Of a DNA stretch of 38,184 bases, positions 1,450 to 37,429 are shown in pieces (positions within the stretch are counted from its first letter, which is position 1; each line of letters opens with the position of its first letter). The DNA is from Pseudorhodobacter ferrugineus DSM 5888. GTDB lineage: Bacteria; Pseudomonadota; Alphaproteobacteria; Rhodobacterales; Rhodobacteraceae. Both the position numbers and the translations under genes were made by a program. The notes under the pieces are model-generated. The model was not told the origin of the DNA, did no database searches, and was given only the letters and a program-made list of their open reading frames with translations. The stretch covers positions 1 to 38,184 of the forward strand of contig NZ_ATVN01000026.1 in the NCBI RefSeq assembly GCF_000420745.1, given 5' to 3'.

Positions 1450-1489
1450 CGTTCCCCTCTCATGGTTTGCCTGCAAACCATGAGAGGGC
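1450..1489. repeat. Hairpin insert A in IS3 OrfB
   Basis: A perfect inverted repeat has arms of 16 bp (1455-1470, CCCTCTCATGGTTTGC, and 1473-1488) with a 2-nt loop. Comparison with the family's usual ...EV-L-F-EYINSFYNP reading shows about 39 nt of extra sequence here, in frame. Both ends carry the GAGAGGG motif, so this copy is symmetric. Its stem core GGTTTGC/GCAAACC is the same as in insert E at 21971-21990. Confidence 0.8.
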
Positions 1490-1579
1490 AAGAGGGTAAC
1501 TTCGACCTCTCTGCGGGTCTGCCAGTTTCTGCGCCAGACCATTTCCGCCTTGAGGGATTTGAAAAAGCTCTGGACCGCT

Positions 1580-1615
1580 GCCCTCGCCATTGGGCTTGAA
1601 CCAGTGGCGCCTATC
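1580..1615. repeat. Hairpin insert B in IS3 OrfB
   Basis: Arms CGCCATTGG (1585-1593) and CCAGTGGCG (1601-1609) pair with one wobble or mismatch around a 7-nt loop. The insert adds 12 codons between CFDRA and AVQSFF of the transposase. Its ends are only weakly like the family consensus (GAGGGC on one side), so it may be a diverged member. Confidence 0.55.
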
Positions 1616-1725
1616 GCTCGATCAAAACAGTTGTCCTTTGCGCTCATGGATGCTGTTAGGCCGTGTCTTCCCAGGATATTCTGATAGTCGTGCGAACAGT
1701 ATTGGCTGCCGCTATCCGTATGGTG

Positions 1726-1766
1726 CCCTCTCGGCAGATTACTCCGTAATCGCCTGCCGGGTAACA
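1726..1766 (-). repeat. Hairpin insert H in IS3 OrfB
   Basis: On the minus strand the insert reads TGTTACCCGGCAG, a stem GCGATTAC / GTAATCTGC, then CGAGAGGG. It lies between KGCI and HHTDSGSQY of the transposase, which are adjacent in intact relatives. The added 41 nt breaks the reading frame. The flanks match the consensus of the family, while the stem sequence is its own. Confidence 0.8.
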
Positions 1767-1822
1767 AATGCAGCCTTTGGGCGGCCTGCGCAGCGCAATG
1801 GCCATAGTCAGGGCACGGATCG

Positions 1823-2122
1823 CTAGGTGTTCAGTCCCAGCATCTGGTGGATCGGATTTAGGATGAATCGATCTGGCTCTGAAGTCCAGATCTTGCAGAT
1901 GTATTCGTAGGGTGTGAGCCCACCGAGGGTCTTGAGGCTGCTAGCGAAGTTGTAGGCTGCCATGAAGTCCGCGAGATGGGTGCGTCGTTGGTTGTGGTCG
2001 TCGTAGTGGAAACGCTTGACCGTCGCGTCTTTGATTGTGCGGTTCATGCGCTCTACCTGACCATGGTCCACGGATGGTTTGGCTTGGTAAGGCGATGTTC
2101 GATAAACACGCCTGTCAGGCAA
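1823..2122 (-). pseudogene. IS481-type transposase, C-terminal fragment, frameshifted
   Basis: The frame contains GQVERMNRTIKDATVKRF, the catalytic Glu region of the integrase core, then HLADFMAAYNFA, LTPYEYICKIWTSEPDR and the ending NPIHQMLGLNT, all typical of IS481-type transposases. Just upstream, another frame reads EHRLTKPNHPWT, which should precede it. A single base appears lost at TGGACCATGG (about 2063), so the two are out of frame. The N-terminal two thirds are absent; the sequence meets an IS3 OrfA end at hairpin insert D. Confidence 0.75.
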
Positions 2123-2156
2123 CGGGCAGCGGATGTTTACATCCGCGAGAGGGGGG
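2109..2156. repeat. Hairpin insert D at an IS3/IS481 junction
   Basis: Arms GCGGATGT (2129-2136) and ACATCCGC (2139-2146) pair perfectly around a 2-nt loop, followed by GAGAGGGG (2147-2154). On the left, CCTGTCAGGCAACGG is the reverse complement of the usual left flank, so this copy looks rearranged about its hairpin. It separates the end of an IS3 OrfA (...YFARES) from an IS481 transposase end. Confidence 0.7.
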
Positions 2157-2469
2157 ATTCCCTGGCGAAGTATGCGGTCGCCTTTTTTAGGATGTCCCGT
2201 TCCTCCGTGAACCTAACGAGATCGCGCTTCAGACGGCGGATCTCATCGGCTTGGGCATCGACCTCTTTGATCACCTTCGCGGGCCGCGAAAACAGCTTTT
2301 GCCAACTGTAGATCGACTTGGTGCTGCTTCTCGGCGATTGCATTCGCAATGCGCCTGTCAGCCAACGGACACCCAATCGCTCGGCCACATCGCGCACCGG
2401 ATAGCCCCGATCCTCGACTTGGGCCACCGCATCGCGCTTGAACTCATCTGTGAATTTAGCTCCGGACAT
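2137..2469 (-). pseudogene. IS3-family OrfA with an in-frame hairpin insert
   Basis: The protein reads MSGAKFTDEFKRDAVAQVEDRGYPVRDVAERLGV, then a foreign RWLTGALRMQSPRS, then STKSIYSWQKLFSRP and a coiled-coil VDAQADEIRRLKRDL, ending ILKKATAYFARES. Without the foreign 14 residues it is a normal OrfA (helix-turn-helix plus leucine zipper) that would be fused to OrfB by frameshifting. The insert falls between recognition helices and would be expected to inactivate DNA binding. The start is placed at ATG 2469, where family similarity starts; a preceding GAGGACGCG can serve as the ribosome site. The C-terminus runs into insert D and its partner OrfB is missing. Confidence 0.75.
2327..2368 (-). repeat. 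Hairpin insert C in IS3 OrfA
   Basis: On the minus strand it reads CCGTTGGCTGACAGG, a stem (GCATTGC / GCAATCGC, slightly bulged), then CGAGAAG. It adds 42 nt between the codons for ERLGV and STKSIY. The left flank matches the family consensus; the right flank is one base off. Confidence 0.75.
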
Positions 2470-2580
2470 CGCGTCCTCCTTGCTTCCAAAATTACCAAGC
2501 AAGGCGTTTACAAATCTAGGGGCTATTCAGACTGTGAAATTGATGCATGGTCCATGCACCGCAAAGAGAAGGAGCCCACC

Positions 2581-3705
2581 ATGCCCGCCGAAGCGACCCG
2601 TTTTGACAGACTTTCAACCCCCGCGCTGCTGCTCGATGACGCGAAAATGATGCGCAACATCGAACGGCTGGCGGCGCGTGCGCAAAAGCTTGGCGTGACG
2701 CTGAGGCCGCATCTGAAAACCGCAAAGTCGGTCGAGGTTGCGCGGCGTCTGAACAAAGGTATGGCAGGTGCGATCACCGTATCCACCTTAGCCGAGGCCG
2801 AGGCGTTCCATGCCGCTGGCTTTCTCGACATCCTGTATGCCGTGGGCATTGCCCCGCAAAAACTGGCGCGCGTGCAAGCGTTGCGTGCAAAGGGCTGTGA
2901 CCTGGTTGTTATCCTAGACAACGTCGAACAGGCACAAGCTGTTGCACAAGCGGGGGTGCCTGCCATGATCGAGATTGACTGTGACGGCCATCGCGGCGGG
3001 CGACAGCCAGATGAGGCGGCACTGATCGATATAGGCCGCATCCTGCATGCACAGGGCTGCTTGCGCGGCGTCATGACCCATGCCGGCGAAAGCTATACCG
3101 TGCGGGGTAAGGCGGCCCATGCCGCATTTGCCGAGCAAGAGCGCAGCGCAACCGTTCGCGCGGCAGATGCCTTGCGAGGTGCAGGTTTGCCCTGCCCCAT
3201 TGTGAGCGTTGGGTCGACACCGACGGCCCATAGCGCCCGCGATTTGTCTGGCGTGACCGAGTTGCGCGCCGGGGTCTACATGTTCTTTGACCTGGTGATG
3301 GCTGGCATCGATGTTTGCCGACTAGAGGATATTGCGCTCACGGTGCTGACATCGGTTATCGGGCACCAGAAGGACAAGGGCTGGATCATGATCGATGCTG
3401 GCTGGATGGCAATGTCGCGTGACAGGGGTACTGCGACACAAGATGTAGATCATGGTTACGGTTTGGTGTGTGACGCGGATGGGCGGATCCTGCCCGATCT
3501 GATCATCAGCGGGGCCAATCAAGAACACGGTATCCTTTCGCTGCGCCCTGGCGCAAAAGGCGCATTGCCAGATTTGCCTGTTGGAACGCTGTTGCGTATT
3601 TTGCCCAACCACGCCTGTGCGACAGCCGCCCAGTATGACCGCTACACTGTGCTTTCGCCCGATGGCGGCCCGTTGCAGACCTGGCAGCGTTTTGGCGGCT
3701 GGTAA
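2581..3705 (+). CDS. PLP-dependent D-threonine aldolase / D-serine dehydratase-like enzyme
   Basis: This is a fold-type III (alanine-racemase barrel) PLP enzyme of 374 residues. The PLP lysine lies in LRPHLKTAKS (K46), and a C-terminal PNHACATA (342-349) supplies the His and Cys that bind a divalent metal in D-serine dehydratases (DSD1) and D-threonine aldolases. It should cleave or deaminate a 3-hydroxy-D-amino acid in the cytoplasm. The start at ATG 2581 has AAAGAGAAGGAG just upstream and is where family similarity begins; the open frame extends further up only into IS DNA. The next gene is a decayed ornithine-cyclodeaminase family member. The pairing recalls the beta-hydroxyaspartate cycle (bhcC-bhcD), but this protein looks closer to general DSD1-like enzymes, so the substrate is open. 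The upstream IS may have removed its promoter or partner genes. Confidence 0.85.
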   Translation: MPAEATRFDRLSTPALLLDDAKMMRNIERLAARAQKLGVTLRPHLKTAKSVEVARRLNKGMAGAITVSTLAEAEAFHAAGFLDILYAVGIAPQKLARVQALRAKGCDLVVILDNVEQAQAVAQAGVPAMIEIDCDGHRGGRQPDEAALIDIGRILHAQGCLRGVMTHAGESYTVRGKAAHAAFAEQERSATVRAADALRGAGLPCPIVSVGSTPTAHSARDLSGVTELRAGVYMFFDLVMAGIDVCRLEDIALTVLTSVIGHQKDKGWIMIDAGWMAMSRDRGTATQDVDHGYGLVCDADGRILPDLIISGANQEHGILSLRPGAKGALPDLPVGTLLRILPNHACATAAQYDRYTVLSPDGGPLQTWQRFGGW

Positions 3706-3714
3706 GCGGCCAGA

Positions 3715-4380
3715 ATGAGTAATGAAGCCAGCCTTTTTGATGCCATGCGCAGCGCCATCATCACGGCCATGGGGACGGATGCCCTCAGCTTTGCGGCGGT
3801 CCTTGCCCATTGCGGCGACACACAAAACCATTTCACCATCACATCGGCAGCGGAGGCCGGTCCGGCCGGATTCAAACTCGGTGCTTTTTTCCCAAAAGTG
3901 ATGCCGCGCCATGCCTTGGCAAGTCTGCTGATGGATCAATTCTCTGACTGAATCGGCGCAGTGGTCGAAGGGCCGAACCTGAACGGTTTTCGCACCGCTA
4001 CGGCCGATGCCGTTGCCACGGGCCCCTTGCATGACGAAATGCGAACGCTCTGACGGTTTTTGGCATTGGCACCCGGTCGCATTCGTGGGGTCAGGCAATC
4101 GCCCGTATTTGCGCCTTGTCGCGCGTGCTGGTGGGGGGATCCCGTCGCGCGCCGCGGGGTTTGGAAAATGCTGCAACGGGCAAAATCTATTCGCTGATAG
4201 TGTCGCCCGGTCTTTGCCGCCAAGGTATGGGTCGGCATAAATGCACGATCCGACTGCGCACAGTTCAGGCCAAACAGTTCAAAACGCAAGCTTCCGTTGC
4301 CCGCCACAGGCTTGCCAGCCGCACCACTATTTGGTCAGCGAAAGGTTGAAATCGGTGGAACAATCGAGCCAAAAAAACAT
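3715..4380 (+). pseudogene. Ornithine cyclodeaminase / mu-crystallin family gene, decayed
   Basis: The first frame (3715-3951) contains GFKLGAFFPKVMPRH, typical of the N-terminal part of this family, and ends in a TGA at 3949. Directly after the stop the same frame reads GPNLNGFRTATADAVA, the conserved xLTxxRTAAxxA region that follows in intact proteins. A second frame then gives VFGIGTRSHSWGQAIARICALSRVLVGG, the Rossmann NAD(P)-binding part, and a further frame gives PVFAAKVWVGINA. At least one stop and two frameshifts therefore break the gene. Intact members are NAD(P)H-dependent cyclodeaminases or imine reductases. It lies 10 bp after the PLP enzyme and was probably its operon partner. The 3' boundary is approximate. 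Confidence 0.7.
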
Positions 4381-4622
4381 GCAATTCCACACGGGGCCCA
4401 GCCTCCCGGCCTTTAGACAAGCAATTGATTCGATCAAAGGTTTCAGCCCCCTTTGCGAGGCTGCTTTCTGGAGTCTTGACCGCACTATTTGATAATTATG
4501 TGTAGATGTCGGCCTGCCGTTTTGGATTCTTTCCAAGACGTGACCCGCACATCCGAAACTTGCCCTTGAACAGCGGCGGGTTCATCGTAAACTTGCGCAA
4601 CGAGTGATTTGGGAGTGTGAAG
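4381..4622. other. Intergenic stretch with no recognisable gene
   Basis: This gap holds the faded end of the pseudogene and presumably the promoter of the lytic transglycosylase. A TTGACC at about 4475 followed by AT-rich sequence is a possible promoter, but the -10 element is unclear. GGGAG at 4610-4614 is the ribosome site of the next gene. Confidence 0.4.
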
Positions 4623-5426
4623 ATGTCGGTTATAAGACAAATGGTGATGGCGCTGGCTTTGGCGACAGCAAGCGGGGGGACGGCGCTGGCTGCGACCTGT
4701 TCCAATTCGGGTGGCGGGTATGAGACCTGGAAATCCGAGATTGCAGCCGAGGCCGCGGCGCAAGGGGTTGGGGCCAAGGGCATTCAGGCGTTGATGGCGA
4801 CCAGCTATTCCAAAGAGACCATTGCGGCAGATCGCAACCAAAAGAGTTTCAAATACACGATCGACAAGTTCATGCAGGTGCGCGGCGCCGATACGATTGT
4901 AAAGCAAGGACGCGGACATAAGGCAAAGAATTCTAAACTGTTCAACGCGTTAGAGAGCCAGTACGGCGTGCCTGCGGGGGTGTTGGTGGCCATTCACGGG
5001 ATGGAAACTGCGTTTGGCAGTTATATGGGCAGCACCAATATCGTGGCGGCGATTTCAACCCTGACCTATGATTGCCGGCGGTCTGCGTTCTTTCGTCCGC
5101 ATATGATGGCGGCGCTGGTGTTGGTGGATCGCGGGTCGATCACCGCCAATTCAACCGGGGCCAAGCATGGCGAATGGGGACATACCCAGTTCTTGCCAGG
5201 CAACGCGCTGAAATACGGGGTTGACGGGGATGGTAATGGCAAGGTTGATTTGAATAACCGCACCGATGCGCTGGCCTCGACCGCGAATTATCTGCGCAAA
5301 AAGGGGTGGAAACCGGGGCAAGGCTATCAAAAGGGCCAGCCGAACTATGCCGTATTGAATGAATGGAACGCGGCGAGCGTGTACCAAGAGGCGATTGCGA
5401 TTATGGGCGCTCGGATTGACAATTAG
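4623..5426 (+). CDS. Lytic murein transglycosylase, MltB/SLT_2 type
   Basis: The 267-residue protein starts with a signal peptide (MSVIRQMVMALALATASGGTALA, cut near residue 23) and no lipobox, so it should be periplasmic. The catalytic glutamate is in HGMETAFGS (E128). Later it has GAKHGEWGHTQFLPGNALKYG and DLNNRTDALASTANYLRKKGW, the standard MltB-type substrate-binding segments. It cleaves the MurNAc-GlcNAc bond of peptidoglycan with 1,6-anhydro ring formation. The ATG at 4623 is preferred over GTG 4617 because GGGAG lies 8 bases before it. It stands alone, convergent with the flavin reductase 15 bp downstream. Confidence 0.88.
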   Translation: MSVIRQMVMALALATASGGTALAATCSNSGGGYETWKSEIAAEAAAQGVGAKGIQALMATSYSKETIAADRNQKSFKYTIDKFMQVRGADTIVKQGRGHKAKNSKLFNALESQYGVPAGVLVAIHGMETAFGSYMGSTNIVAAISTLTYDCRRSAFFRPHMMAALVLVDRGSITANSTGAKHGEWGHTQFLPGNALKYGVDGDGNGKVDLNNRTDALASTANYLRKKGWKPGQGYQKGQPNYAVLNEWNAASVYQEAIAIMGARIDN

Positions 5427-5441
5427 AAGTGTAGGCGCGTC

Positions 5442-6098
5442 TTAACGGACGCGCCCTTCTAGCCCTGCATCGGCGATGCTGTTGTCACCGGGGATGCGCA
5501 TTTCAAATGTTTCCGTAATGGTGGCATAATCGTAATAGCCCATGCGGGCGAGCGGCTGGATTTGTGCGATATCCAGCTTGCCATCGGGGCGGATGACCTG
5601 ATCGGCGACATGGATGCGCATAACTTGGCCAAACACCACATCGACGGTGCCCACGGGGCCATTGCCCGGCAGCTGCGTGGTAGAGATATATTTGCATTCA
5701 AAATGCGCGGGGCTTTCGGCGACACGCGGGCCCGGCGCGTCGATACAAGCCGCTTTGGTGACGCCCGCATGGATAAATTCATCCTGCCCGTAAGGCAGCG
5801 CTTGGGCCGAGAGGTTGACCGCATCGCGCAAGGCGAAGGTTGCCATGTTCCAAACAAACCAACCCGTTTGCTGTGCATTGATCACCGTGTCTTTGCGGCG
5901 GCCATCGGGGTAGCCGTTGGCGGCAAACATGACCATCGGCGGGTCAAACGTGAGATTTTGCCATTGGCTGTAGGGGGCAAGATTGGCGCGGCCGTCGCAG
6001 CTGATGGTGGACAACCAGCCGATCGGGCGCGGCACGGTGCAGCTTTTGAACGGGCTGAAGGGGAGTGGGCACGGGTCGGTGGCGGGGGCGTAGTGCAT
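5442..6098 (-). CDS. Flavin reductase-like domain protein (FMN-binding)
   Basis: The 218-residue protein has the split-barrel flavin reductase fold. It shows VPRPIGWLSTIS near residue 25, FDPPMVMFAANGYPDGRRKDTVINAQQTGWFVWN (flavin-binding strand and loop) and a C-terminal GYYDYATITETFEMRIPG. Relatives bind FMN and reduce it with NAD(P)H or act as small oxidoreductases; the substrate cannot be read from sequence. It lies 100 bp downstream of hutU on the same strand, behind a GC-rich hairpin, so it may or may not be read with the hut genes. No role in histidine breakdown is known to me. Confidence 0.8.
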   Translation of the reverse strand: MHYAPATDPCPLPFSPFKSCTVPRPIGWLSTISCDGRANLAPYSQWQNLTFDPPMVMFAANGYPDGRRKDTVINAQQTGWFVWNMATFALRDAVNLSAQALPYGQDEFIHAGVTKAACIDAPGPRVAESPAHFECKYISTTQLPGNGPVGTVDVVFGQVMRIHVADQVIRPDGKLDIAQIQPLARMGYYDYATITETFEMRIPGDNSIADAGLEGRVR

Positions 6099-6124
6099 GT
6101 TTTGGCCTTTTCTTGTGAGACAGG

Positions 6125-6167
6125 CCGGGGGGCTGTCTGCCCCCCGGACCCCCCGAGGATATTTTTG
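6125..6167. terminator. GC-rich hairpin between hutU and the flavin reductase gene
   Basis: CCGGGGGGC (6125-6133) pairs with GCCCCCCGG (6139-6147) around a 5-nt loop, followed on the plus strand by ACCCCCCGAGGATATTTTT. Similar sequences recur between genes in Rhodobacterales. A T-run follows only on the plus strand, so termination of the minus-strand hut transcript is uncertain. Confidence 0.45.
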
Positions 6168-6198
6168 CCGAAAAGAACGCGGGGGACCGGTGTTGCGG

Positions 6199-7878
6199 TT
6201 ATTTCAGGATGCCTGGCAGGTTGAGGTTGTGGTCACGGGCGCAATCGAGCGCGACATCATAGCCCGCATCGGCGTGGCGCATGACACCTGTGGCGGGGTC
6301 GTTCCACAGCACATTGTGCAGGCGGCGGGCGGCATCATCTGTCCCATCGGCGACGATAACCATGCCGGAATGTTGGGAAAAGCCCATCCCAACGCCGCCG
6401 CCGTGGTGGAGCGACACCCAAGTCGCACCCGACGCGGTGTTGAGAAGCGCGTTGAGGAGCGGCCAGTCGGAAACAGCGTCGGAGCCATCCTTCATCGCCT
6501 CGGTTTCACGGTTGGGGCTGGCGACCGAGCCTGAATCCAGATGGTCGCGGCCGATGACGATGGGCGCTTTAAGTTCGCCTGAAGCGACCATCTCATTGAA
6601 CATCAGCCCCGCTTTGTGGCGGTCGCCAAGGCCGATCCAGCAGATGCGGGCAGGCAGGCCTTGGAACGCAATACGGTCGCGGGCCATATCCAGCCAGTTG
6701 TGCAGGTGGTGATTATCGGGGAAGAGTTTTTTCATCGCCGCGTCGGTTTTATAGATATCTTCGGGGTCGCCGGACAGGGCCACCCAGCGGAACGGGCCGA
6801 TACCTTTGCAAAACAGCGGGCGGATATAGGCAGGCACAAACCCCGGGAAAGCGAAGGCGTTTTCCAAGCCTTCATCGAGCGCGACCTGGCGAATGTTATT
6901 GCCGTAATCCAGCGTGGGCACACCTGCGTTCCAAAAGTCGACCATCGCGGCGACATGGGTTTTCATAGAGGCGCGGGCGGCTTTTTCCACCGCTTTGGGG
7001 TCGGTTTCGCGCATTGCCTTTGCCTTTGCCACCGTCCAGCCTTGTGGGAGATAGCCGTTGAGCGGGTCATGGGCCGAGGTTTGGTCAGTCACAATATCAG
7101 GGCGTGCGGTGCCTGCCTGCATGCGTTTGACCAGTTCGGGGAAGATGTCGGCGGCGTTGCCCAGAAGGCCCACGGATTTCGCCTCGCCCGCCGCAGTCCA
7201 ATCTGCGATCATCGCCAAGGCTTCATCCAGATTCTTAGCTTTGGCATCTACGTATCTGGTACGAATACGAAAATCGATACGGGTTTCATCGGACTCTACT
7301 GCCAGACAGCAGGCACCGGCCATAACGGCGGCCAGCGGTTGCGCGCCACCCATGCCGCCCAAGCCAGCCGTCAAAATCCATTTGCCGCGCAGATTGCCGC
7401 CGTAGTGCTGGCGGCCTGCCTCGGCAAACGTCTCATACGTGCCTTGCACGATGCCTTGGGTGCCGATGTAGATCCACGAGCCAGCGGTCATTTGGCCGTA
7501 CATCGCAAGGCCGCGTTTATCGAGTTCATTGAAATGGTCCCAGGTCGCCCAATGCGGCACGAGGTTGGAATTGGCGATCAGCACGCGCGGGGCATCTTTA
7601 TGGGTTTGGAAAACGCCCACGGGTTTGCCCGATTGCACCAGCAAGGTTTGATCGTCGTTCAAATCGCGCAGCGACGCACAGATTTGGTCGAAATCCTCCC
7701 ACGTGCGGGCGGCGCGGCCGATGCCGCCGTAAACCACCAATTCATGCGGGTTTTCGGCGACATCGGGGTGCAGGTTGTTCATCAACATGCGCAAAGGGGC
7801 CTCGGTCAGCCAGCTTTTGGCGGTAATCTCGGTTCCGGTGGCGGGATAGATATCGCGGGTGTTGTGGCGGGTGTTCAT
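6199..7878 (-). CDS. hutU: Urocanate hydratase
   Basis: At 559 residues this has full family length. It catalyses the second step of histidine degradation, hydrating urocanate to 4-imidazolone-5-propionate with a tightly bound NAD+ acting as electrophile. The NAD-binding [10 protein letters not shown] (about 173-182), the catalytic-site [14 protein letters not shown] (Cys near 408) and the ending [17 protein letters not shown] are all present. The ATG at 7878 is followed by [17 protein letters not shown], the normal N-terminus, and the rc of CCTTT (AAAGG) sits just upstream. It lies 10 bp after hutH in a minus-strand operon (hutI-hutH-hutU). Cytoplasmic. The operon should be controlled from the hutI-hutF gap by HutC. 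Confidence 0.97.
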
Positions 7879-7888
7879 GGCGTTTCCT

Positions 7889-10602: not shown

Positions 10603-10625
10603 CTTGATTCCTTTTGCGTTTGGAT

Positions 10626-10645
10626 TATTATGTACATACATATTA
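10626..10645. promoter_or_regulatory. Probable HutC operator in the hutI-hutF gap
   Basis: A perfect 10-bp palindrome TATGTACATA (10629-10638) lies in AT-rich sequence between the divergent hutI and hutF. Known HutC sites in Pseudomonas centre on TGTATATACA, and GntR/HutC proteins bind such TGTAxxTACA-like palindromes. The hutC gene is the last gene of the divergent transcript, so both operons could be repressed from one site and induced by urocanate. Binding is inferred. Confidence 0.55.
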
Positions 10646-10686
10646 AATCTGTCAACGTGGGCAGAGGCAGAAAAAGGGGTCAGCAA

Positions 10687-12734: not shown

Positions 12735-12762
12735 CCCCGCCATTTCATCTTTGCACAAATAC

Positions 12763-13849: not shown

Positions 13850-13910
13850 CCATGGTAGTCGGGTTCGAACGATAAAAACCCACCCGACAAGAGTTTTAAC
13901 GGAGGCTTTA

Positions 13911-17663: not shown

Positions 17664-17680
17664 GGGCAAAGCCATATATT

Positions 17681-18084
17681 GCGCGGATGGCCTGTAAGCC
17701 GGATTTTGTTCCAGACGTTTCCGTCCTTCGATGACCATTCCTCTGGGCCCGCCATTGCTGACGCGCTCTAGCTGCCAACCCGGACCTCTGGGCTGAGGCA
17801 TCCCTGCATGTGCCCGAAAGCGCCTGCACGAGGTCCCTATTCGGCATTGCTCCGGGTGGGGCTTGCCATGCCAGCCGTGTTGCCACGCCTGCGGTGGGCC
17901 TTACCCCACCGTTTCACCATTCCCCTGACATGCAGGGGTGTCTCTTCTCTGTGGCGCTTTCCCTTGGGTTACCCCAGCCGGGCGTTACCCGGCACCCTTG
18001 CCTTATGGAGTCCGGACTTTCCTCGCATCTGGCGGTTTCCCTTACGGGACTACGCCAAACACGCGATCATCCGGCCATCCGCGC
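17681..18084 (-). ncRNA. rnpB: RNase P RNA (bacterial class A)
   Basis: On the minus strand the conserved GAGGAAAGTCCGGACTCC lies near the 5' end (around 18015-18030), followed by GGCAAGGGTGCCGGGTAACG and a 3' part with AAATCCGGCTTACAGGCC. The ends GCGCGGATGGCC (5', 18084-18073) and GGCCATCCGCGC (3', 17692-17681) pair as helix P1, which sets the boundaries. It is the catalytic RNA that trims tRNA 5' leaders. Open frames across it on both strands are not genes. Its 5' end lies only 11 bp after the amidase stop, so its promoter must lie inside that gene. Confidence 0.95.
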
Positions 18085-21534: not shown

Positions 21535-21795
21535 ATGTTGGAGCAGAATGCGGCGATGTCGCAGTACATCCGCCCCCATATTGCCGGTGCCACCGTGTTT
21601 TTCACGGTCGCCGTGGCCGCGCGGGGAACGGATGTTTTGAGCACGCATGTTGAGACTTGCGCGACACCGTCCGCGACACCCACAACGAGCGCCCGTTCGG
21701 CGTGGCAGCATGGGTGGTGTGGCCCGACCATATGCATTGCGTGTGGCAATTGCCGGAGGGGGATTGCGATTATTCGACACGGTAGAGTGTGATTA
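21535..21795 (+). pseudogene. REP-associated tyrosine transposase (RAYT, Y1_Tnp), frameshifted and truncated by IS5
   Basis: The first frame reads MSQYIRPHIAGATVFFTVAV (ATG 21556), a common RAYT N-terminus. A base appears lost at about 21657; the next frame continues LRDTVRDTHNERPFGVAAWVVWPDHMHCVWQLPEGDCDY, with the HxH (HMH) of the HUH nuclease. The gene then ends at the IS5 tip at 21796 and its 3' part, with the catalytic Tyr, is not found on the other side of the IS. RAYTs are single-copy host-domesticated relatives of IS200/IS605 transposases that move short palindromic repeats. Confidence 0.75.
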
Positions 21796-21957: not shown

Positions 21958-21998
21958 GCGTTGCCCGGCAACGGTTTGCACGCAAACCGTGAGAGGGG
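21958..21998 (+). repeat. Hairpin insert E in IS5 transposase
   Basis: GCGTTGCCCGGCA is followed by a perfect 9-bp stem ACGGTTTGC (21971-21979) / GCAAACCGT (21982-21990) with a 2-nt loop, then GAGAGGG. It separates PRVDD from RVLxGIIFIN, which are adjacent in the IS5 copy at 36603-37502, where the same place has no insert; the net gain is about 39 nt in frame. This gives an internal empty-site comparison. Confidence 0.85.
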
Positions 21999-22182: not shown

Positions 22183-22200
22183 TATCCGCTGCCCGGCAGT
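22183..22200 (+). repeat. Remnant of a hairpin insert at a deletion junction in IS5
   Basis: CCGCTGCCCGGCAGT, the usual left flank of the insert family, stands between the codons for MIDPTY and the codons for DENG. About 35 codons of transposase are missing here, together with the hairpin and right flank of the insert. The other IS5 copy has a full insert (F) a few codons away. Confidence 0.6.
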
Positions 22201-22488
22201 GGATGAAAACGGCGGCACTATCCACTTCTTCATGACCGCAGGCGAGATCAGCGACGATATTGGCGCTGCGGCCTTGTTGGGCGGCTTGCCAGTGGCAGAA
22301 TGGTTGCTGAGCGACCGTGGTTATGATGTCTATTGGTTCAGAGATGCGTTGAAATACAAAGGGATAAAGCCGTGCATCCCAGGTCGGAAGTCCCGCAGCA
22401 AGCCGGTGAAATACGACAAGCGTCGCTACAAACGCCGCAACCGCATCGAGATCATGTTCGGGCGTTTGAAGGATTGGCCAATCGTCGG

Positions 22489-22513
22489 GAAAACAGTCCC
22501 CTAGACTGTTTTC
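22489..22513. repeat. Second-type palindrome in IS5 transposase
   Basis: GAAAACAGTC (22489-22498) and GACTGTTTTC (22504-22513) form a perfect 10-bp stem with a 5-nt loop. It sits inside about 45 nt that split GRLKDW from the following part of the transposase and add a stop codon. Its flanks (CGTCGG..., ...GGACCC) differ from the main insert family. Confidence 0.7.
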
Positions 22514-22661
22514 GGACCCTCCTCATAGGTGGCAACCTGCTACGACCGATGCCCAAAAGTCTTCCTCTCCGCCAAAGCCCTTACCGCAACTGTCCTGTTC
22601 TGGCTTTGACGGTCAATGAGTCTGGACCCTACGAATGCACCCCGTTAAAAATGGGAGGATT

Positions 22662-26506: not shown

Positions 26507-26611
26507 ATGACCAGAAGTGTTAAGGCCCCGTTGGTCGGTCATATCTACCGGATCAACCTTAGCGGGGCTGTAAAGTAGGGGTTCGGCTCTTGATTGCTGT
26601 GCAAGGCCGCT

Positions 26612-27340: not shown

Positions 27341-27514
27341 CAACCGAAGTCACAAGCAGTTCGCCGAGGCCATTCGGCGCATTCATGCGTGAAACCATCC
27401 CAAACGAATGGAAAACCTTCCGCGACAAAGTGTCAGACAACTTCCACGATATAACACACGAAAAAGTTCGGCTTTTGGGGTGAAGGCGGTATGGCGGAAA
27501 TCGATACTCCGTAT
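27341..27514. other. Short gap between IS903 and the transporter gene
   Basis: An open frame ending at 27481 (MRETIPNEWKTFRDKVSDNFHDITHEKVRLLG) crosses this gap, but most of its upstream part is IS DNA and I recognise no family. No terminator is evident for the phosphonate operon, whose last gene stops at 27515. Confidence 0.3.
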
Positions 27515-29700: not shown

Positions 29701-29717
29701 TCGCCAAGCCTTTGTGT

Positions 29718-29748
29718 TAAAGAAAAATCGCGGCCCCGCGGGGCCGCG
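29718..29748 (-). terminator. Hairpin with T-run between phnY and the PbfA-type gene
   Basis: On the minus strand CGCGGCCCC pairs with GGGGCCGCG around GC (29729-29748) and is followed by ATTTTTCTTTAAC. It lies 24 bp after the phnY stop and would stop or reduce reading into the PbfA-type gene and the transporter. Confidence 0.7.
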
Positions 29749-29772
29749 TAAGTCACAGGAAGACTTGTCGCA

Positions 29773-31224: not shown

Positions 31225-31239
31225 TTGCGGCTTTCCAGT

Positions 31240-32484
31240 TCAAAGTGCTGCGGCAGTGGTCGCATAAAAGAACGCATCAAAGTTGCGCAGAACCGGCTGG
31301 CTTGGCAAATCGATGACGCGGTTAACGATGAAGGGCACCACTTGTTCGGTCAGCCCGCCATGGCTGCGCAGCGGTTCATTCAATGCGGCCAAATCATGGC
31401 GATGCGCCGAAGTGCCGATGGTCATGTTTTCGGTGGAAATCATCACAATATCGCCGATCCGGTCGGCAGGCAGCTCAAAGCGCTTTACCGCTTCGGCTCG
31501 GTCCATCACCTCCATAATTTCCGGACGTGCGGCAAGGCGCGCGATGATGTCAGCCTGATTGGCCCCTTTGGGAAGATAGGCCGTCCCAAAACCGCCCAAA
31601 GCACCATGATGCACAACATAGGGGTCGGTGATCGGCAAGATCACGCGGGCAGCAGCCTCGCCCAACCAGCCATCCAGCAGATCTTGCACATAAATCACCT
31701 GCGGGTCGCCATTGGCATCATGCTTGGGCTTCATACCATGATCAGCCGTTACAACAATTGCTGCCCCCATCGTATCCAACTGCGCAAGGTAGCGATCAAA
31801 CATTTCATAAAACGCCTGTGCTTCTGGCTGATGTGGGGCGTATTTATGCTGTACATAATCGGTGGTCGTCAAATACATCACATCCGGCTTCCATTCGGCC
31901 AGCAATTTGACTCCGGCGGCAAAGACAAATTCTGAGAGCTCTGCCGAATAGACCTCGGGCTGCGCCATCCCGAGCCATTTTGAAGCCGCGTCTTGCCCAT
32001 GTTCGGCTTGCGTCGAACTATCAGATTTCTCGGCCGAAAAACATTTCGCGCGGTCATCCCCGAACTCCAAGCCTGCACCCAACAATGCGCGCAATTTGTC
32101 CTTGGCGGTCACAATCGCAACGCGTGCCCCGGCATCATAGAATTGCTTGAACACGGTTGGCGCGCGCAAAAACCGCACGTCATTCATCATCACCTCTTCG
32201 CCGGTTTCCGGCTCGTACAGGTAATTGCCGCAAATACCATGCACTGCGGGCGGACGGCCCGTAGCGATGGACAGATTGTTGGGGTTCGTAAAGGACGGGA
32301 TCACCGAATGCGCCAAACGGTCGGTTCCTGTTTCGCGCATTTTCTTCAGCGTAGGCATCAGGCCTTTGGCGATGGCTTGGGTCAGGTACTCCGGTTCACA
32401 TCCATCAAGGCAAATCGCAATCGCGGTCACTTTGGGCCAAGGATAGCTGCGCTCATTGGCGATAACGGGTTGTTTTTGGGTCAT
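31240..32484 (-). CDS. phnA: Phosphonoacetate hydrolase
   Basis: The 414-residue enzyme belongs to the alkaline-phosphatase superfamily. It splits the C-P bond of phosphonoacetate to acetate and phosphate with two zinc ions. Visible ligands are Asp in ICLDGCEPEY (D27), the nucleophile Thr in PSFTNPNNLSIATG (T66), Asp/His in TADHGMKPKHD (about 241) and the C-terminal His in GTSAHRHDLAALNEPLRSHGG. Start ATG 32484 is preceded by AAAGGACTGACC. It comes second in the operon after phnW. The phn symbol used here is the hydrolase, not the unrelated E. coli phnA. Confidence 0.94.
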   Translation of the reverse strand: MTQKQPVIANERSYPWPKVTAIAICLDGCEPEYLTQAIAKGLMPTLKKMRETGTDRLAHSVIPSFTNPNNLSIATGRPPAVHGICGNYLYEPETGEEVMMNDVRFLRAPTVFKQFYDAGARVAIVTAKDKLRALLGAGLEFGDDRAKCFSAEKSDSSTQAEHGQDAASKWLGMAQPEVYSAELSEFVFAAGVKLLAEWKPDVMYLTTTDYVQHKYAPHQPEAQAFYEMFDRYLAQLDTMGAAIVVTADHGMKPKHDANGDPQVIYVQDLLDGWLGEAAARVILPITDPYVVHHGALGGFGTAYLPKGANQADIIARLAARPEIMEVMDRAEAVKRFELPADRIGDIVMISTENMTIGTSAHRHDLAALNEPLRSHGGLTEQVVPFIVNRVIDLPSQPVLRNFDAFFYATTAAAL

Positions 32485-32517
32485 GGTCAGTCCTTTAGTT
32501 TATCTGTGTGTGCCAGA

Positions 32518-33708
32518 TCAGGCGGCAAGTTTTGCGCGTTCGGCAAGCGCTTCGGCGGGGGGGGCAGCCGAGGCCACCCCCATTTCCCCCAGCGCCTCGG
32601 CCGCAGCTTTGACAACACGGGTCATGATCGAGCCATCCATCCGGCCAATGCAGCCAACACGAAAGCTTTCCACCACGGTCAACTTGCCGGGATAGATGAT
32701 GAAACCCTTGTCTTTCATCCGCTCATAAAACTCGGCGAACACGAATTTCGGATCGGCAGGGCAAAAGAAGGTTACGATGATCGGTGACAACCAGCGATCT
32801 TTCAGCAAGGTTTCAAAGCCAAGGCTCCGCATCCCCGCCACCATCACATCGCGGTTGTCGGCATAACGCGCCCCCCGCCCTGCCACGCCGCCCTCAAGCG
32901 CATGAATGCGCAACGCCTCAAGAAATGCGGCGACAACATGGGTGGGCGGCGTATAGCGCCACTGGCCCGACTTCACCATATTCGCCCATTGCGCGTATAG
33001 ATCTAGCACGAGGGAGTGAGAGTTGCCCTTGCAGCCCTCAAGTTCCGCCTTGCGGGCAATTGCAAAACCAAAGCCAGGAACGCCTTCGATACATTTGTTC
33101 GCCGAACTGACCATCGCCTCGTATCTGATCCGTGTAACATCCAGATCAACCGCACCAAACGCCGACATAGAGTCGATCAACAGCTTGCGGCCAGCGGCAT
33201 AGGTCGCTTCGGAAATTTCGGCCACAGGGTTCAGAATACCAGAAGACGTCTCGCAATGGCACACAATCACATGGGTGATTGCAGCGTCAGCGGCCAGCGC
33301 CTCGGCCACCTCTACCCCGCGCGGCGGCATGTAATCGCCCTTGTCTATCAGTGTATAGGCCCGCCCCAGATAGCGCATGGTTTCCGCCGCACGCAGACCG
33401 TATGCGCCATTGGCAAGCACCAAAACCTTGCCATCCCGTGGTACAAATGTCCCCAACATCGCCTCTACGCAGTAACTGCCCGACCCTTGCATCGGCACGC
33501 AAACATAAGCGCCATCAAGATCACCTGCCAAGTCAAGCAGTTGATCGCAAACCGATTTGGTCATGGCACGGAAATCACCATCCCAAGACCCCCAATCACG
33601 CAACATCGCCTCTTTCACCGACAGCGCAGTGGTCAACGGGCCGGGCGTCAGCAAGAAGGGCTCACCTTTTGCTGGGTTTGGAAACGCGTCGTTTGGGAGG
33701 GAAGACAT
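32518..33708 (-). CDS. phnW: 2-aminoethylphosphonate--pyruvate transaminase
   Basis: This 396-residue class V aminotransferase transfers the amino group of AEP to pyruvate, giving phosphonoacetaldehyde and alanine. TPGPLTTALSVKEAMLRDWGSWD (21-43) is the family N-terminus, and the PLP lysine is K205 in SSANKCIEGVPGFGF. QGSGSYCVEA and IDSMSAFGAVD are further conserved segments. It is first in the operon phnW-phnA-phnY-(pbfA-type)-(transporter) and faces a LysR regulator across 435 bp. The extreme C-terminus is Ala-rich and slightly longer than usual. Confidence 0.95.
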   Translation of the reverse strand: MSSLPNDAFPNPAKGEPFLLTPGPLTTALSVKEAMLRDWGSWDGDFRAMTKSVCDQLLDLAGDLDGAYVCVPMQGSGSYCVEAMLGTFVPRDGKVLVLANGAYGLRAAETMRYLGRAYTLIDKGDYMPPRGVEVAEALAADAAITHVIVCHCETSSGILNPVAEISEATYAAGRKLLIDSMSAFGAVDLDVTRIRYEAMVSSANKCIEGVPGFGFAIARKAELEGCKGNSHSLVLDLYAQWANMVKSGQWRYTPPTHVVAAFLEALRIHALEGGVAGRGARYADNRDVMVAGMRSLGFETLLKDRWLSPIIVTFFCPADPKFVFAEFYERMKDKGFIIYPGKLTVVESFRVGCIGRMDGSIMTRVVKAAAEALGEMGVASAAPPAEALAERAKLAA

Positions 33709-33767
33709 ATGCGCGGCCTCATTCTTGAAAATGGCGGTGTGAAAAGAGGTTTCCCATAGGTCAATAT

Positions 33768-33791
33768 ATATGTAAAATCGTTATTTTATAT
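33768..33791. promoter_or_regulatory. AT-rich imperfect palindrome before phnW, candidate LysR site
   Basis: TAAAAT (33773-33778) and ATTTTA (33783-33788) face each other around CGTT within an AT-rich block about 60-80 bp before phnW. LysR regulators bind T-N11-A palindromes upstream of the divergent target. The site is a guess from symmetry and place. Confidence 0.35.
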
Positions 33792-33900
33792 TAGACCATC
33801 GCAAAAATCGATACATTGTGTCGGCATTCGAAAACGGCTTTCCAACAAGAGCCTGCTTTGCGTCAAAATTGGATAAGCGACGGTGCGAGGAGCGACGATT

Positions 33901-34008
33901 TCAGTCGCGTCCCATGATCGCGCTCAACCCCAGTGCAAACCATGCGACCGGCCCACAAAAGCGCACTACTGCGCCAGCAAGACGGATCAGAAACGCGCAA
34001 GGTAGCAT
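33901..34008 (-). CDS. Small hydrophobic peptide (35 aa) between phnW and its regulator
   Basis: A 36-codon frame reads MLPCAFLIRLAGAVVRFCGP, then VAWFALGLSAIMGRD and a TGA. GAGGA stands 8 bases before the ATG. The peptide could form one membrane helix. It runs in the phnW direction and stops about 190 bp before phnW. I recognise no family; it may be a chance frame. Apart from this peptide and the operator candidate, the 33709-34143 gap shows nothing else. Confidence 0.3.
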   Translation of the reverse strand: MLPCAFLIRLAGAVVRFCGPVAWFALGLSAIMGRD

Positions 34009-34143
34009 TATAAGTTCCTCAATTCAGGTCCAAAACCGGGCCGCGCCTACCGTGTCGGCACGCCATACAACACACTTGATCTGCATAAGATAGATCGTTA
34101 AATTCAATCAAAGTATAAGAAAATATTATAGAAAGAGCCCGCT

Positions 34144-35031
34144 ATGCGTTATGTACAGCTTCGCGCATTCCATTATGTCGCTATTTATGGCGGCTTTTCC
34201 CGCGCGGCCAATGAGCTTTTTCTAACCCAGCCCGCGATTTCTGACCAAGTCCGCAAGCTGGAAGAGGAATATGACATCCTTTTGTTCAACCGCCACAAAA
34301 AACAAGTCGAGATAACACCTGCAGGCGAAAAGCTTTTGGAAATCACACGGCGCATGTTCGACAGCGAAAAACAGGCGCAGGAGTTATTGACCGAAAGCCG
34401 AGCCACACGTACAGGCACCTTGCACATAATGGCCGACAGCGCGGTACACGTGCTTAAGATACTCGCTAGGTTTCGTGAAAAATATCCCGGCGTCGTGGTA
34501 AAGATCAGTCAGGGCAACACAGAAACCGTAACTGAAAGCCTGTTCCGCTATGAGGCTGATATTGGCATTCTCGGCGAACTTCCCCCAGCCAGCGATTTTG
34601 AAACAATAGCCCTGAATTCCAGCCCCATTTCCGCATTTGTCGCGCTTGATCATCCGCTCGCCATGCGCAAATCTTTGAGTTTTGCGGACCTTTTGGGTCT
34701 GCCCTTGGTGATGCGCGAAGCAGGATCCAAAACGCGCAAAAAGTTTGAAGACGCCGCGGAAGCAAAAGGATTTTCGTTTACGCCCACCATTACGGCAGAG
34801 GGTCGAGAAGCCGTGCGCGAGATTGTCGCTTCGGGTGCTGGTGTAGGGTTTGTGTCAGCCGCCGAATTTGGCGACGATCCCCGTCTTATTCGTATTCCAC
34901 TTGAAGATGAAGGGCAGATGATGATGGACGAAACCTTGATTTGCCTGCGCGAGCGCCGTGGAGGCAAGCTCGTCAGCGCCTTTCTGTCAATCGCACAAGA
35001 CCACGCAAACGACATCGTGCCTGACACTTAA
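34144..35031 (+). CDS. LysR-family regulator, probable activator of the phosphonate operon
   Basis: The 295-residue protein starts MRYVQLRAFHYVAIYGGFSRAANELFLTQPAISDQVRKLEEEYDILLFNR (helix-turn-helix, about 3-50), followed by an effector domain with FREKYPGVVVKISQGNTETVTESL and AGVGFVSAAEF. It diverges from phnW, the usual place for the LysR regulators of AEP operons, which respond to AEP rather than to phosphate starvation. ATG 34144 follows AGAAAGAGC. Its target is inferred from position. Confidence 0.85.
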   Translation: MRYVQLRAFHYVAIYGGFSRAANELFLTQPAISDQVRKLEEEYDILLFNRHKKQVEITPAGEKLLEITRRMFDSEKQAQELLTESRATRTGTLHIMADSAVHVLKILARFREKYPGVVVKISQGNTETVTESLFRYEADIGILGELPPASDFETIALNSSPISAFVALDHPLAMRKSLSFADLLGLPLVMREAGSKTRKKFEDAAEAKGFSFTPTITAEGREAVREIVASGAGVGFVSAAEFGDDPRLIRIPLEDEGQMMMDETLICLRERRGGKLVSAFLSIAQDHANDIVPDT

Positions 35032-35216
35032 ACACTGGTGCTGCGCAGCAGCCGAGCATCTCTACCGCCATTACGTCCCGCCAAGGCGTCAAGGCTCAAA
35101 GTTTGCAACAGAATCTGAAGCACTGCTAAATTGGCGGTTTAGCGTGCCATGTCGCCGCAAACCTGACCCCTGCAAGATCAATCTCGAATGCGCCTTCGGA
35201 CAGATAGGTACGGTCG

Positions 35217-35237
35217 ATTGCATGCGCGAGAGGGGGC
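35217..35237 (-). repeat. Partial hairpin insert G3
   Basis: CCCTCTCGCGCATGCAATCG on the minus strand carries the CGAGAGGG end (in reverse) and a short self-complementary GCATGC, right after the FFAGQS codons of OrfA. It looks like half of an insert. Confidence 0.45.
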
Positions 35238-35254
35238 TTTGGCCAGCAAAGAAG

Positions 35255-35294
35255 CCTAACGGTGAATGTTCCATTCACCTACCGGCCAACGGAT
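35255..35294 (-). repeat. Hairpin insert G2 in IS3 OrfA
   Basis: On the minus strand CCGTTGGCCGGTA is followed by a perfect 8-bp stem GGTGAATG / CATTCACC (35279-35272 and 35268-35261) with a 3-nt loop, then GTTAGG instead of CGAGAGGG. It splits LKKAAI from FFAGQ. Confidence 0.7.
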
Positions 35295-35409
35295 TGCCGC
35301 CTTTTTTAACACTTCCCTCTCCTCGCGCGAGCTATGCGGACTTCTTTGCGAAGGGGTTCGTTCTCTTTCTCAACGTCCTTGTGCGGACCCGCCATAAGAG
35401 CATCGTGCT

Positions 35410-35451
35410 CCCTCTCGGGACATTGCTGCGCAATGCCCTGCCGGGCAACGG
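35410..35451 (-). repeat. Hairpin insert G1 in IS3 OrfA
   Basis: On the minus strand CCGTTGCCCGGCAG, a stem GGCATTGC / GCAATGTCC with a 3-nt loop, then CGAGAGGG. This is the best match to the family consensus. It enters after WVQKH and changes the length by a number not divisible by three. Confidence 0.85.
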
Positions 35452-35755
35452 ATGCTTTTGAACCCACGTGTTCAGCGTCGAAAGCCCAACACCCAAACCT
35501 GATGAAACTTGCGGTCGTGTTAAGCCGCTTGTAACCGCAATCCGCACGGCATCACGCCGAAACTCGTCTGTGTGTCTCGTTGCCATTCTTAATCTCCTTC
35601 ATAGCAAACATTGCTCGAAAAAGACCGGAACTAAACCGTAGCAAGACCAATCGATCGCCAATATTTTAATCTCCGACATAAATGCCTCCCTCTTGGTGGT
35701 TACAACAACACCATCTTTGCACAATTGGTGCCGTTGGGTGGGGGAATCCACCGCA

Positions 35756-36478
35756 TCAATTCACGCCCCTATCATATCCGGTAAGAAGGCTGGGCCACTC
35801 TACGCCTGAAAATAGGGGCTCTAGCTGCTTGGAACTTTCCTTCTCAAGTGAACGCTTCAACCGGGCCAAATTTTGCAACGGCCAACTACCTGTCTCTCGG
35901 CGCCTGCATTTGTCGAAATCGATTAACCACACCTGCATATGTGCGTCCACAAGGATATTCCGACAGTTCAGATCCGAGTGATCGACGCCCAGAGCATGCA
36001 TTTGGCGGATAGCAGAGCCAATTTTCGACCATGTCTTTAGCGGCAGTGGTGTTGTTTGCAGAATATCTGCTAGAGGGCTCGCCTGAGGGATGCGTTCGGT
36101 TATCAAATCCGCACTATAACATAGTCCCGCAGGCGAATACCGCGCCGCCACAGGGCGCGGAACGGGGAGTGCATGACTCCGCATCCAGTTCAGCAAGCTA
36201 TATTCTCGGAAAGAACGACTACGTTCGGCTCCAAGACGAAGGTACTTATTGGCATTAACCTTTCCAATCAAACCACCCCTTCGGAATGGACGTAGAACCA
36301 ACTCATGCCCCTCAGAACGAAAGAAAATCGCATGGCCTCTCCCCGGAGCACTGCCGTACACGTCCCCATTATTCTGTTGCCACTCTGTATCAAAAAATTG
36401 TGGGCTTATGTTCGGCAGAACTTGCGTGTCATACCAAATGACCTGTCCTGCAACTTTTTTTACCGCGCCCGTATGCAT
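35756..36478 (-). CDS. kdkA: 3-deoxy-D-manno-octulosonic acid (Kdo) kinase
   Basis: The 240-residue protein has the small lipopolysaccharide kinase fold. The catalytic loop is GVDHSDLNCRNIL (about 170-182), the metal Asp is in WLIDFDKCRRR, and GRGHAIFFRSEGHELVLRPFRRGGLIG is the nucleotide-binding N-lobe. KdkA phosphorylates the 4-OH of Kdo in the LPS core when only one Kdo is present. ATG 36478 is used because CACGAGGCAAAA precedes it and similarity begins here; the open frame goes on to 36562. The gene is AT-richer than the host background and lies alone between an IS3 remnant and an IS5 element, consistent with transfer. Confidence 0.85.
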   Translation of the reverse strand: MHTGAVKKVAGQVIWYDTQVLPNISPQFFDTEWQQNNGDVYGSAPGRGHAIFFRSEGHELVLRPFRRGGLIGKVNANKYLRLGAERSRSFREYSLLNWMRSHALPVPRPVAARYSPAGLCYSADLITERIPQASPLADILQTTPLPLKTWSKIGSAIRQMHALGVDHSDLNCRNILVDAHMQVWLIDFDKCRRRETGSWPLQNLARLKRSLEKESSKQLEPLFSGVEWPSLLTGYDRGVN

Positions 36479-36623
36479 TTTTGCCTCGTGAAACTTTTTT
36501 AAGTTGCTATGAAAGTAATAAAGTCTATGAAAAACTTGGGCTGACTGACTTGCGATTATCATGTATCTCTATATTACCAAAACTGAAATAAGATAATATT
36601 TAGGGTCAGGACTCGTTCTTATT

Positions 36624-37429
36624 TCAAAGCCAGAACATGATGGTCGCGGCGAGCGCGACAGCTGAGAGAAAGACCTTTGGACACCTGTCGTAGCGCGTGG
36701 CGACGCGCCGCCAGTCCTTCAATCGCCCAAACATGATCTCGACCTGTTGCAGCGTTTCTATCGCGCTTGTCGTGCTTGATGGGCTTGGCGCGAGACTTCC
36801 GGCCCGGGATGCAGGGCTTTATCCCCTTGTCTTTCAACGCATCTTTCAACCAATCGGCGTCATAGCCCCGATCTGCGAACAGCCACTCTGCCTTTGGCAA
36901 ACTGCTCAGCAGGGCTGCGGCACCAGTGTAATCGCTGACTTGGCCTGCGGTCATGAAAAAGCGGATCGGGCGCCCCTCGGCATCCGCCACCGCATGCAGC
37001 TTGGTGTTCATGCCACCCTTGGTGCGACCAATCACACGGCCCCGCTGGTCGTCGGGCTCCCTTTTTTCAACCGCAGGCTGGTCGCCGTGCCCCTCTCGCA
37101 TATGCCGTGCATGTGCTGCCGGGCAATGGGTGCGCCTTCAAATATGTTGCATCAATCATCACCGTCTTCGGAACCGCCGCCTCGGTGGCCAGACCCTCCA
37201 TGATCCGGGCGAAGATGCCCTTGTCGCTTCATCGCTTCCAACGGTTGTAAAGGGTCTTCGCCGGCCCATACTCCTTCGGCGCATCACACCAACGCAAGCC
37301 ATCGCGATTGATGAAAATTATACCGCTCAGAACGCGGCGATCGTCAACGCGTGGCACGCCATGGCTTTTTGGGAAGAACGGCCGAAGCCGGGCCATCAGT
37401 GCGTCCGTCAGCCAGAAAAGATTGCTCAT
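36624..37429 (-). pseudogene. IS5-family transposase, broken
   Basis: The start MSNLFWLTDALMARLRPFFPKSHGVPRVDDRRVLSGIIFINRDGLRWCDAPKEYG is intact and runs to a stop near 37229 through a frameshift. The next frame has TVMIDATYLKAH, then insert F, then RGRVIGRTKGGMNTKLHAV, FADRGYDADWLKDALKDKGIKPCIPGRKSRAKPIKHDKR. A further change near 36765 disrupts the RRNRIEIMFGRLKDW block, which reappears in another frame and ends at 36624 (ATIMFWL). Catalytic Asp and Glu regions are recognisable but not in one frame. Confidence 0.85.
37090..37130 (-). repeat. Hairpin insert F in IS5 transposase
   Basis: On the minus strand CCATTGCCCGGCA, a stem GCACATGC / GCATATGC (one wobble) with a 3-nt loop, then GAGAGGGG. 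It splits TYLKAH from the following codons and shifts the frame (about +38). Confidence 0.8.

Follow-up and report, generated by a model that had tools for sequence, protein, structure and literature searches.

The window, that is, the whole stretch of 38,184 nucleotides (nt) analysed from Pseudorhodobacter ferrugineus DSM 5888 (contig NZ_ATVN01000026.1), carries genes of insertion sequences (IS) that are interrupted by short hairpin elements of one family, which is concentrated in the Rhodobacteraceae. In element orientation, the consensus is [C]-C-RYT-G-CCC-GGCA-[stem-loop-stem]-GAGA-GGG-[G], with a length of 36-46 nt. The first-pass annotation had drawn attention to such inserts, and the four copies that it regarded as clearest are real. 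The one on the forward strand, at 21958-21998 (insert proper 21959-21997, 39 nt), lies in an IS5-type transposase gene, has the stem ACGGTTTGC/GCAAACCGT, and is matched in its own genome with an E value of 4.3e-10 by R1, a covariance model built from four real copies; its site is also filled in loci L068, L110 and L020. The other three are on the reverse strand: 35409-35451, in an IS3 orfA, is of the long type with a bulged T (insert proper 41 nt) and was found by R1 (E 4.6e-4) and by a pattern that describes the ends only; 37090-37129, in an IS5-type transposase gene (insert proper 38 nt), was found by the same two means, and its site is also filled in L015 and L091; 1725-1767, in an IS3 orfB, belongs to a T..A..C subtype (TTGTTACC), has a bulged T and an insert proper of 41 nt, and is not among the matches listed for R1 in its own genome.

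As for the weaker copies that had been listed, most are related to the family. On the forward strand, 1449-1489 is a fully palindromic variant with TCTC for GGCA, a change that closes the internal loop (R1 E 7.5e-5), and 2116-2154 has a rearranged left end (R1 E 0.065), its intact form being held by L180 and L223 at what looks like the same site. Degenerate copies lie on the reverse strand at 2325-2368 (IS3 orfA, R1 18.5 bits) and, as judged by eye, at 35253-35292, where the left end and the stem are kept and the right end has decayed. The halves announced at 22183 and 35217 correspond to a weak left half (CTGCCCGGCAG) at 22186-22202, in an IS5 remnant, and to a right half (GCGAGAGGGGG) at 35220-35235, both on the forward strand; the copy proposed at 1580-1615 found no support.

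Regarding the anatomy of the element, the ends-only pattern, which does not require pairing, returned 14 sites when run on the window's genome; its reversed control returned none, which speaks against chance palindromes. By eye, the two ends pair at all 14 sites, some with a wobble, a bulge or a mismatch. In 252 distinct cores, obtained with a scanner that does require pairing, the mirror columns of the 18-, 20- and 22-nt classes are Watson-Crick in about 80-100% of the sequences along most of the stem; a given pair takes as many as four Watson-Crick types, and at the variable pairs the mutual information is well above that of shuffles; the 22-nt class has an additional base, usually T, three positions in from its 3' side. 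The compensatory pattern proposed at the outset, of common flanks around stems that vary and still pair, is thus borne out by this covariation. The clamp covaries as well, being CCC/GGG in 266, CCT/AGG in 10 and GCC/GGC in 3 of 335 copies. In this same set, the GGCA/GAGA mismatch zone is kept in 277 while the upper stem is variable, and positions L1 and L5 form C-G in 302 copies and T-A in 23; a C follows the insert in 22 of the latter and in 6 of the former, so that the combination is C-G-not C in 296/335 and T-A-C in 22/335. The left end is mostly CCRYTG, and YTRTTA in the second subtype. Among 53 same-length pairs of inserts at orthologous sites, pairing was kept in 17 stem pairs despite changes on both sides and in 22 despite a change on one side, 23 were broken, and 375 were unchanged. 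A single strand of the element could adopt a fold that has an RYT triloop and a stacked main hairpin, in which case the two flanking bases would lie side by side. RNAalifold on a MAFFT alignment recovered the outer clamp only; a comparison of the target RY with the element RY, as in target-guide pairing, gave no clear covariation; and a search of Rfam in five sources, at E up to 1, placed no known family on an element.

The distribution of the family was examined at several scales. The genome from which the window comes has 3.43 Mb in 42 contigs, and R1 finds 50 matches there with E values of 10 or less, many of which lie in groups of several to one IS. At E up to 0.001, it matched 18 of 61 genomes, namely all nine of the genus (counting the window's own), 9 of 28 further members of the family Rhodobacteraceae, mostly marine bacteria, and none of 24 from other families. 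A class-wide draw at E up to 1e-4 matched 6 of 289 genomes, three in the family (again including the window's own) and three in other families, one of which is 10% contaminated. Finally, a pattern scan of GTDB matched at least 116 stretches; among the 80 titles of matches listed, nearly all are Rhodobacteraceae or Rhodobacterales by name, with genus placements that we presume, and the few outliers among the matches listed include a Niveispirillum and an Acetobacteraceae assembly. The scanner counted 271 hairpins in a first set of loci (267 without two duplicate loci, 261 with distinct flanks) and 141 in 59 further loci, some overlapping the earlier ones, of two genomes, G007 and G021. Most of the loci named here were fetched with the exact-end pattern, so the conservation of their ends is in part selected.

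G007 is a sister genome, nearly closed (4 contigs, 99% complete), in which 95 of the 105 hairpins in model-collected loci could be assigned to IS genes of many families. BLASTP links 59 of these to transposase frames that are verified or chained, and the other 36 were placed in IS110-, IS66-, IS256-, IS3- and IS5-type genes through a representative, a same-site relative or reading; the Pfam match of the IS256 representative (E 0.0016) is below the cut-off, and five further sequences have no Pfam match and one a weak IS66 match. The ten unassigned hairpins include at least one likely chance match, and two sequences read as IS6-like and IS3-like, without Pfam match, were counted with them. When all loci are taken together, IS3-, IS5-, IS21-, IS66-, IS91- and IS110-type genes are among the verified hosts, and the frames verified with Pfam after removal of the inserts include IS3-type, DDE_Tnp_1_5, IS21-type IstA and IstB, IS91-type Y2 and DUF772-type, the IS family names being in part presumed. 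The matches thus cluster in IS genes instead of being spread evenly; the claim that the inserts occur only in transposase genes holds for the great majority, over more IS types than first listed, with a few matches outside recognised IS genes. An insert also lies in a gene that, by eye, is tyrosine-recombinase-like, beside IS91-type elements (L112 position 4010, L135 position 1729), which makes the hosts IS-associated genes and not transposases alone.

The insertion is precise. A gap-free empty site exists in another locus for 143 inserts, which indicates that they are not normal protein sequence; for the same 143, no target-site duplication, a trait of miniature inverted-repeat transposable elements (MITEs), was found. 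When one base of each end is left behind, the net gap relative to insert-free relatives is zero for 119 of 162 inserts, off by one for 33 and by more for 10, and shifting the assumed length by one shifts the peak by one. The upstream target is C-R-Y-C, and the main subtype is mostly inserted between RYC and G. A search with the flanks only of detected inserts, run to test selection bias on loci that had mostly been fetched for carrying elements, returned 273 empty sites, 193 whole inserts (28-56 nt), 11 longer ones and a single partial one, which suggests that inserts seldom decay in place; 177 of the 193 had already been detected, and the other 16 were, by eye, ten of the same family, three other hairpins and three neither. 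The elements are antisense to the gene in 101 of 138 placements and sense in 37, while the target motif predicts about 51% antisense; all three codon phases are used, antisense phase 0 being the commonest. The base after the insert matches that of empty sites at 0.53-0.69, vs 0.80-0.87 for the flanks (two better identity bands); a change of this base to G by the insertion is not claimed, and in many copies, antisense in phase 0, it is a wobble position. Identity between loci falls with distance from the junction, from 0.91 at 1-6 nt to 0.69 at 61-90 nt for 30 same-variant pairs, from 0.80 to 0.68 for 31 different-variant pairs, and from 0.74 to 0.65 for 472 empty-site controls; in the pairs viewed one at a time, the rise is over after about 10-20 nt, and the long co-conversion tracts of homing by gene conversion were discarded as an explanation.

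Rickettsia palindromic elements are also palindromic inserts within alphaproteobacterial open reading frames (ORFs), and they lie in frame in host genes. The elements described here are in IS genes, and their length is a multiple of three in only 33 of 135 cases; insertion in frame is not supported as the rule, and the first-pass annotation was right to set the two apart. The frame entered contains a stop in 14 of the 135 inserts, vs 22 and 15 in the other two frames. One R. conorii gene is named in this connection in PMC3733652.

Removal of the inserts in silico opens full transposase frames across up to four of them: 308 aa with four inserts in L251-L253 of G021 and in L073 and L088, both of them among the six copies of that IS; 313 aa with four in L187; 318 aa with three in L228; and 404 aa with two in L112. 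The orthologous insert sites form 44 groups, orientation is common to all 152 recorded pairs, and the median edit distance between stems is 0.25 at orthologous sites (158 pairs) vs 0.44 at random. After removal, the ratio of non-synonymous to synonymous substitutions (dN/dS) was obtained for 69 of 75 locus pairs that share inserts, six being saturated, and 43 of the 69, which are not independent of each other, are below 0.3; examples are L120/L187 (0.077), L099/L112 (0.05) and L100/L202 (0.062). The clearest case is L187/L228, with 68% amino-acid identity, dS 1.18, dN 0.24 and dN/dS of about 0.21, in which the inserts at two common sites differ in the loop only. In 76 orthologous same-length pairs, the identity is 69% for the flanks, 72% for the loop, 76% for L2-L3, 82-88% for the boundary bases, 92-99% for the other end segments and 92-94% for the stems; loops that drift like the flanks, with ends and stems kept, are what in-place selection on a removable insert predicts.

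Insert-bearing IS copies have also multiplied. In G021 (2 contigs, 99% complete), a 1.39-kb IS3-type element occurs six times, with an identity to L251 of 99.1-99.8%; every copy has the same four frame-breaking inserts, of 38, 40, 38 and 38 nt, of which two are sense and two antisense, so that 24 of 24 sites are filled. Two of the copies have in common two changes inside the inserts and several outside, and the insert variants follow the tree of the copies, which implies that insert-bearing copies transposed. In a search of this genome at E up to 1e-5 (33 matches), no full-length, insert-free close relative was found, and the matches other than pieces of the six copies were full-length relatives at 26-36% identity and fragments of 27-62 aa at 53-78%. 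For another IS, in the draft genome G002, a 39-nt insert is present in all of its ten best relatives; this shared insert keeps the frame, some copies being open through it, and for this reason it is not counted as support. An eleventh relative, an 88% fragment that contains a stop, extends across the site and has no room for the insert.

Anatomy, precise insertion, confinement to IS genes, restoration of frames in silico and multiplication of insert-bearing copies are all shown by the sequences. The reading that we prefer, with a probability of roughly 0.4, is that these are precise mobile hairpins, shaped like repetitive extragenic palindromic (REP) elements, that live inside IS genes as intervening sequences and do not abolish expression because they are skipped or removed in its course. 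The insert would fold by pairing L1 with L5 over the RYT triloop, stacked on the CCC/GGG clamp and the upper stem; the fold would bring the two flanking bases together, and the insert may then be removed or skipped while the gene is expressed. A step at the level of RNA or the ribosome seems more likely than excision of DNA, because genes with four frame-breaking inserts need efficient removal and 24 of 24 sites in G021 are filled. If removal had a low efficiency, only genes that need little product, such as those of transposases, would tolerate the inserts. Movement would probably be a single-strand, guide-like insertion by some enzyme. A bolder form of the proposal, which we regard as doubtful, is that the Rhodobacteraceae have a populous class of minimal noncoding intervening sequences of about 40 nt, removed from IS genes or read across, in either orientation and any phase, by a new machine; as part of that doubtful form, IS genes would be their home since they tolerate, or profit from, low expression.

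Several points weigh against removal or skipping. The strongest against an RNA or ribosome step are the two orientations and the use of all phases, which fit recognition at the DNA level better. The case for removal is argued from sequence. In orfB, the six G021 copies differ by 5 amino-acid-changing and 2 silent substitutions, with no sign of selection; G002 does not decide; and G007 holds both insert-bearing and insert-free open copies of one IS family. Of the dN/dS ratios, 26 of 69 are 0.3 or more and two are above 1, despite the choice of the frame with the lowest ratio, several of the high values coming from short or decayed frames. Other lesions occur in some insert-bearing genes (L081, L227, L229), and codons split by the insert are less conserved in phase 2 (10/18) than in phase 1 (15/19). 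The contrast between loops and ends is also expected if a fixed element whose loop is variable inserts again and again, and the identical variants seen in diverged genes may come from recent re-insertion, given that high identity, in the pairs viewed one at a time, is limited to about 10-20 nt around the junction. The options left are skipping driven by structure or removal from RNA, which we choose with moderate confidence, rare excision of DNA, or no removal at all.

The main rival is also quite possible, namely that the element is instead a DNA parasite specialised on IS genes, precise, recurrent in site and orientation, and using single-strand chemistry like that of REP or IS200 elements, which inactivates the IS that it enters; this is the parasite of IS elements that had been suggested at first. 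Frames would look intact as the insertions are recent, and insert-bearing copies would move with a transposase that is supplied in trans or has since been lost. Orientation, phase, identity raised only near the junction, the neutral-looking differences in G021 and the insert-free open relative in G007 all suit such a parasite, as does the guide-like covariation of L1, L5 and the next base, comparable to the pairing of guide and cleavage site in IS200/IS605 (PMC8266576). It accounts less well for sites and variants kept at dS of about 1 with a change in the loop only (L187/L228), for stems and ends conserved when loops are not, for one partial vs 193 whole inserts, and for the fact that no helper was found in G021.

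A low level of precise DNA excision, of the kind of the internal eliminated sequences (IES) of ciliates or peel-and-paste, could restore the genes in a few cells; orientation and phase would be irrelevant to it, and precise presence or absence with almost no partial inserts is what it would leave. It is unlikely, given that all 24 sites in G021 are filled and that four excisions would be needed in one copy, and that Y1_Tnp was found in only 2 of 37 genomes of the genus and family. The other suggestion made at first, a host process that scars repeated DNA by insertion in the manner of repeat-induced point mutation (RIP), appears improbable: restriction to IS genes of many families and several inserts per gene fit it, whereas the presence of identical or similar variants at shared sites of different genomes, the multiplication of copies after insertion and the low dN/dS of most pairs do not. 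Codon-matched ribosomal bypass, as in T4 gene 60, can be set aside as very improbable, for the out-of-frame hairpin inserts of about 40 nt and the Shine-Dalgarno (SD)-like GAGAGGGG seen by eye in sense copies are outweighed by antisense copies, split codons and a take-off triplet equal to the landing one in only 2 of 135 cases (shuffled mean 1.75), a result that concerns matched codons and not a skip driven by structure.

As for candidate enzymes, the Y1 domain (PF01797, E 1e-5) was found in G015 and G023 only, leaving 16 of 18 element-bearing genomes without a match (four less than 90% complete), and a REP-associated tyrosine transposase (RAYT) or IS200 mobiliser resident in the same genome is not supported. 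An ORF at 21540-21790 of the window, beside the IS5 remnant, presumably resembles a truncated RAYT, and PF01797 gave no match in this genome at E 1e-5. RNA splicing of the RtcB type is not supported either, as PF01139 was found in 3 of 30 genomes and, among the 17 element-bearing genomes searched, only in G011.

Among known systems, REP elements with their TnpA-REP (RAYT) and IS200/IS605 are the most similar in shape: according to PMC8266576 and PMC3733652, a short 5' tag precedes an imperfect hairpin of 20-50 nt with a mismatched stem zone and a free upper stem, and covariation like that of guide and cleavage site appears in the former. The tag is RYTG or RYTA here and GTAG or CGTC in REP, the elements described here are inside IS genes while REP are mainly intergenic, and most element-bearing genomes lack a Y1_Tnp match at the above threshold. 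The byps of Magnusiomyces mitochondria contain hairpins. They are also many, short and frame-breaking, in genes that are open once the inserts are left out, and codon matching is imperfect in several of them too (PMC5009743). The elements considered here differ in being bacterial, in IS genes, in both orientations and with unmatched take-off and landing codons. The coding gap of T4 gene 60 is a non-coding insert of 50 nt that has stem-loops and an SD-like motif (PMC5009743); it is alike in these features and differs in its matched codons and in being one case vs a dispersed family. Regarding structure, likeness extends to integron attC sites. These are recognised by their fold, with variable stems and an extrahelical base; their GTTRRRY core was not seen by eye in the elements. 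The folding of attC is mentioned in PMC8266576.

If genes with four hairpins do make a working transposase, bacteria would be able to skip or splice tiny structured inserts, and scoring such "broken" transposases as pseudogenes would be wrong for these genomes. We know of no bacterial system that explains such skipping or splicing. If the inserts kill the IS instead, they would be a precise, structure-defined parasite of parasites with some mobiliser. No description of the family was found by title or start of abstract among the papers listed in full-text searches, those on Octadecabacter, a host, included, with partial coverage that takes in few subscription journals and no bioRxiv preprints.

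Other hairpins were also seen. A second family, with 7 distinct copies, has the form GGGAAAA-variable stem-TTTTC, after which most copies read about TGATCCTCCTCA; the one in the window, at 22487-22513 (context 22478-22527), interrupts an IS5-type transposase after an LKDW stretch, and the others are at L016 3430, L063 672, L079 1819, L135 2318, L158 1983 and L243 280. At L158 1972 and L168 7411, sites homologous to that of a detected insert are occupied by an insert of 45 nt whose hairpin is different (GATCC/GGATC core), so other hairpins use the same site; the one at L158 1972 belongs to the second family. Hairpins of the form CCGTTGCCCGGCA-GGCC-rich stem-GAGAGGGG, with a similar flank, lie outside recognised IS genes in L094, L129, L164 and L171, three of which come, by their titles, from one metagenome-assembled genome (MAG). 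Those of the form GGTGTTTGC-nn-GCAAACACC-GAGAGG, at L052 2181, L074 682 and L083 1501, are likewise outside recognised IS genes, and two have weak left ends. Finally, the window contains at 17679-18082 the gene of RNase P RNA (RF00010), an ordinary host gene.

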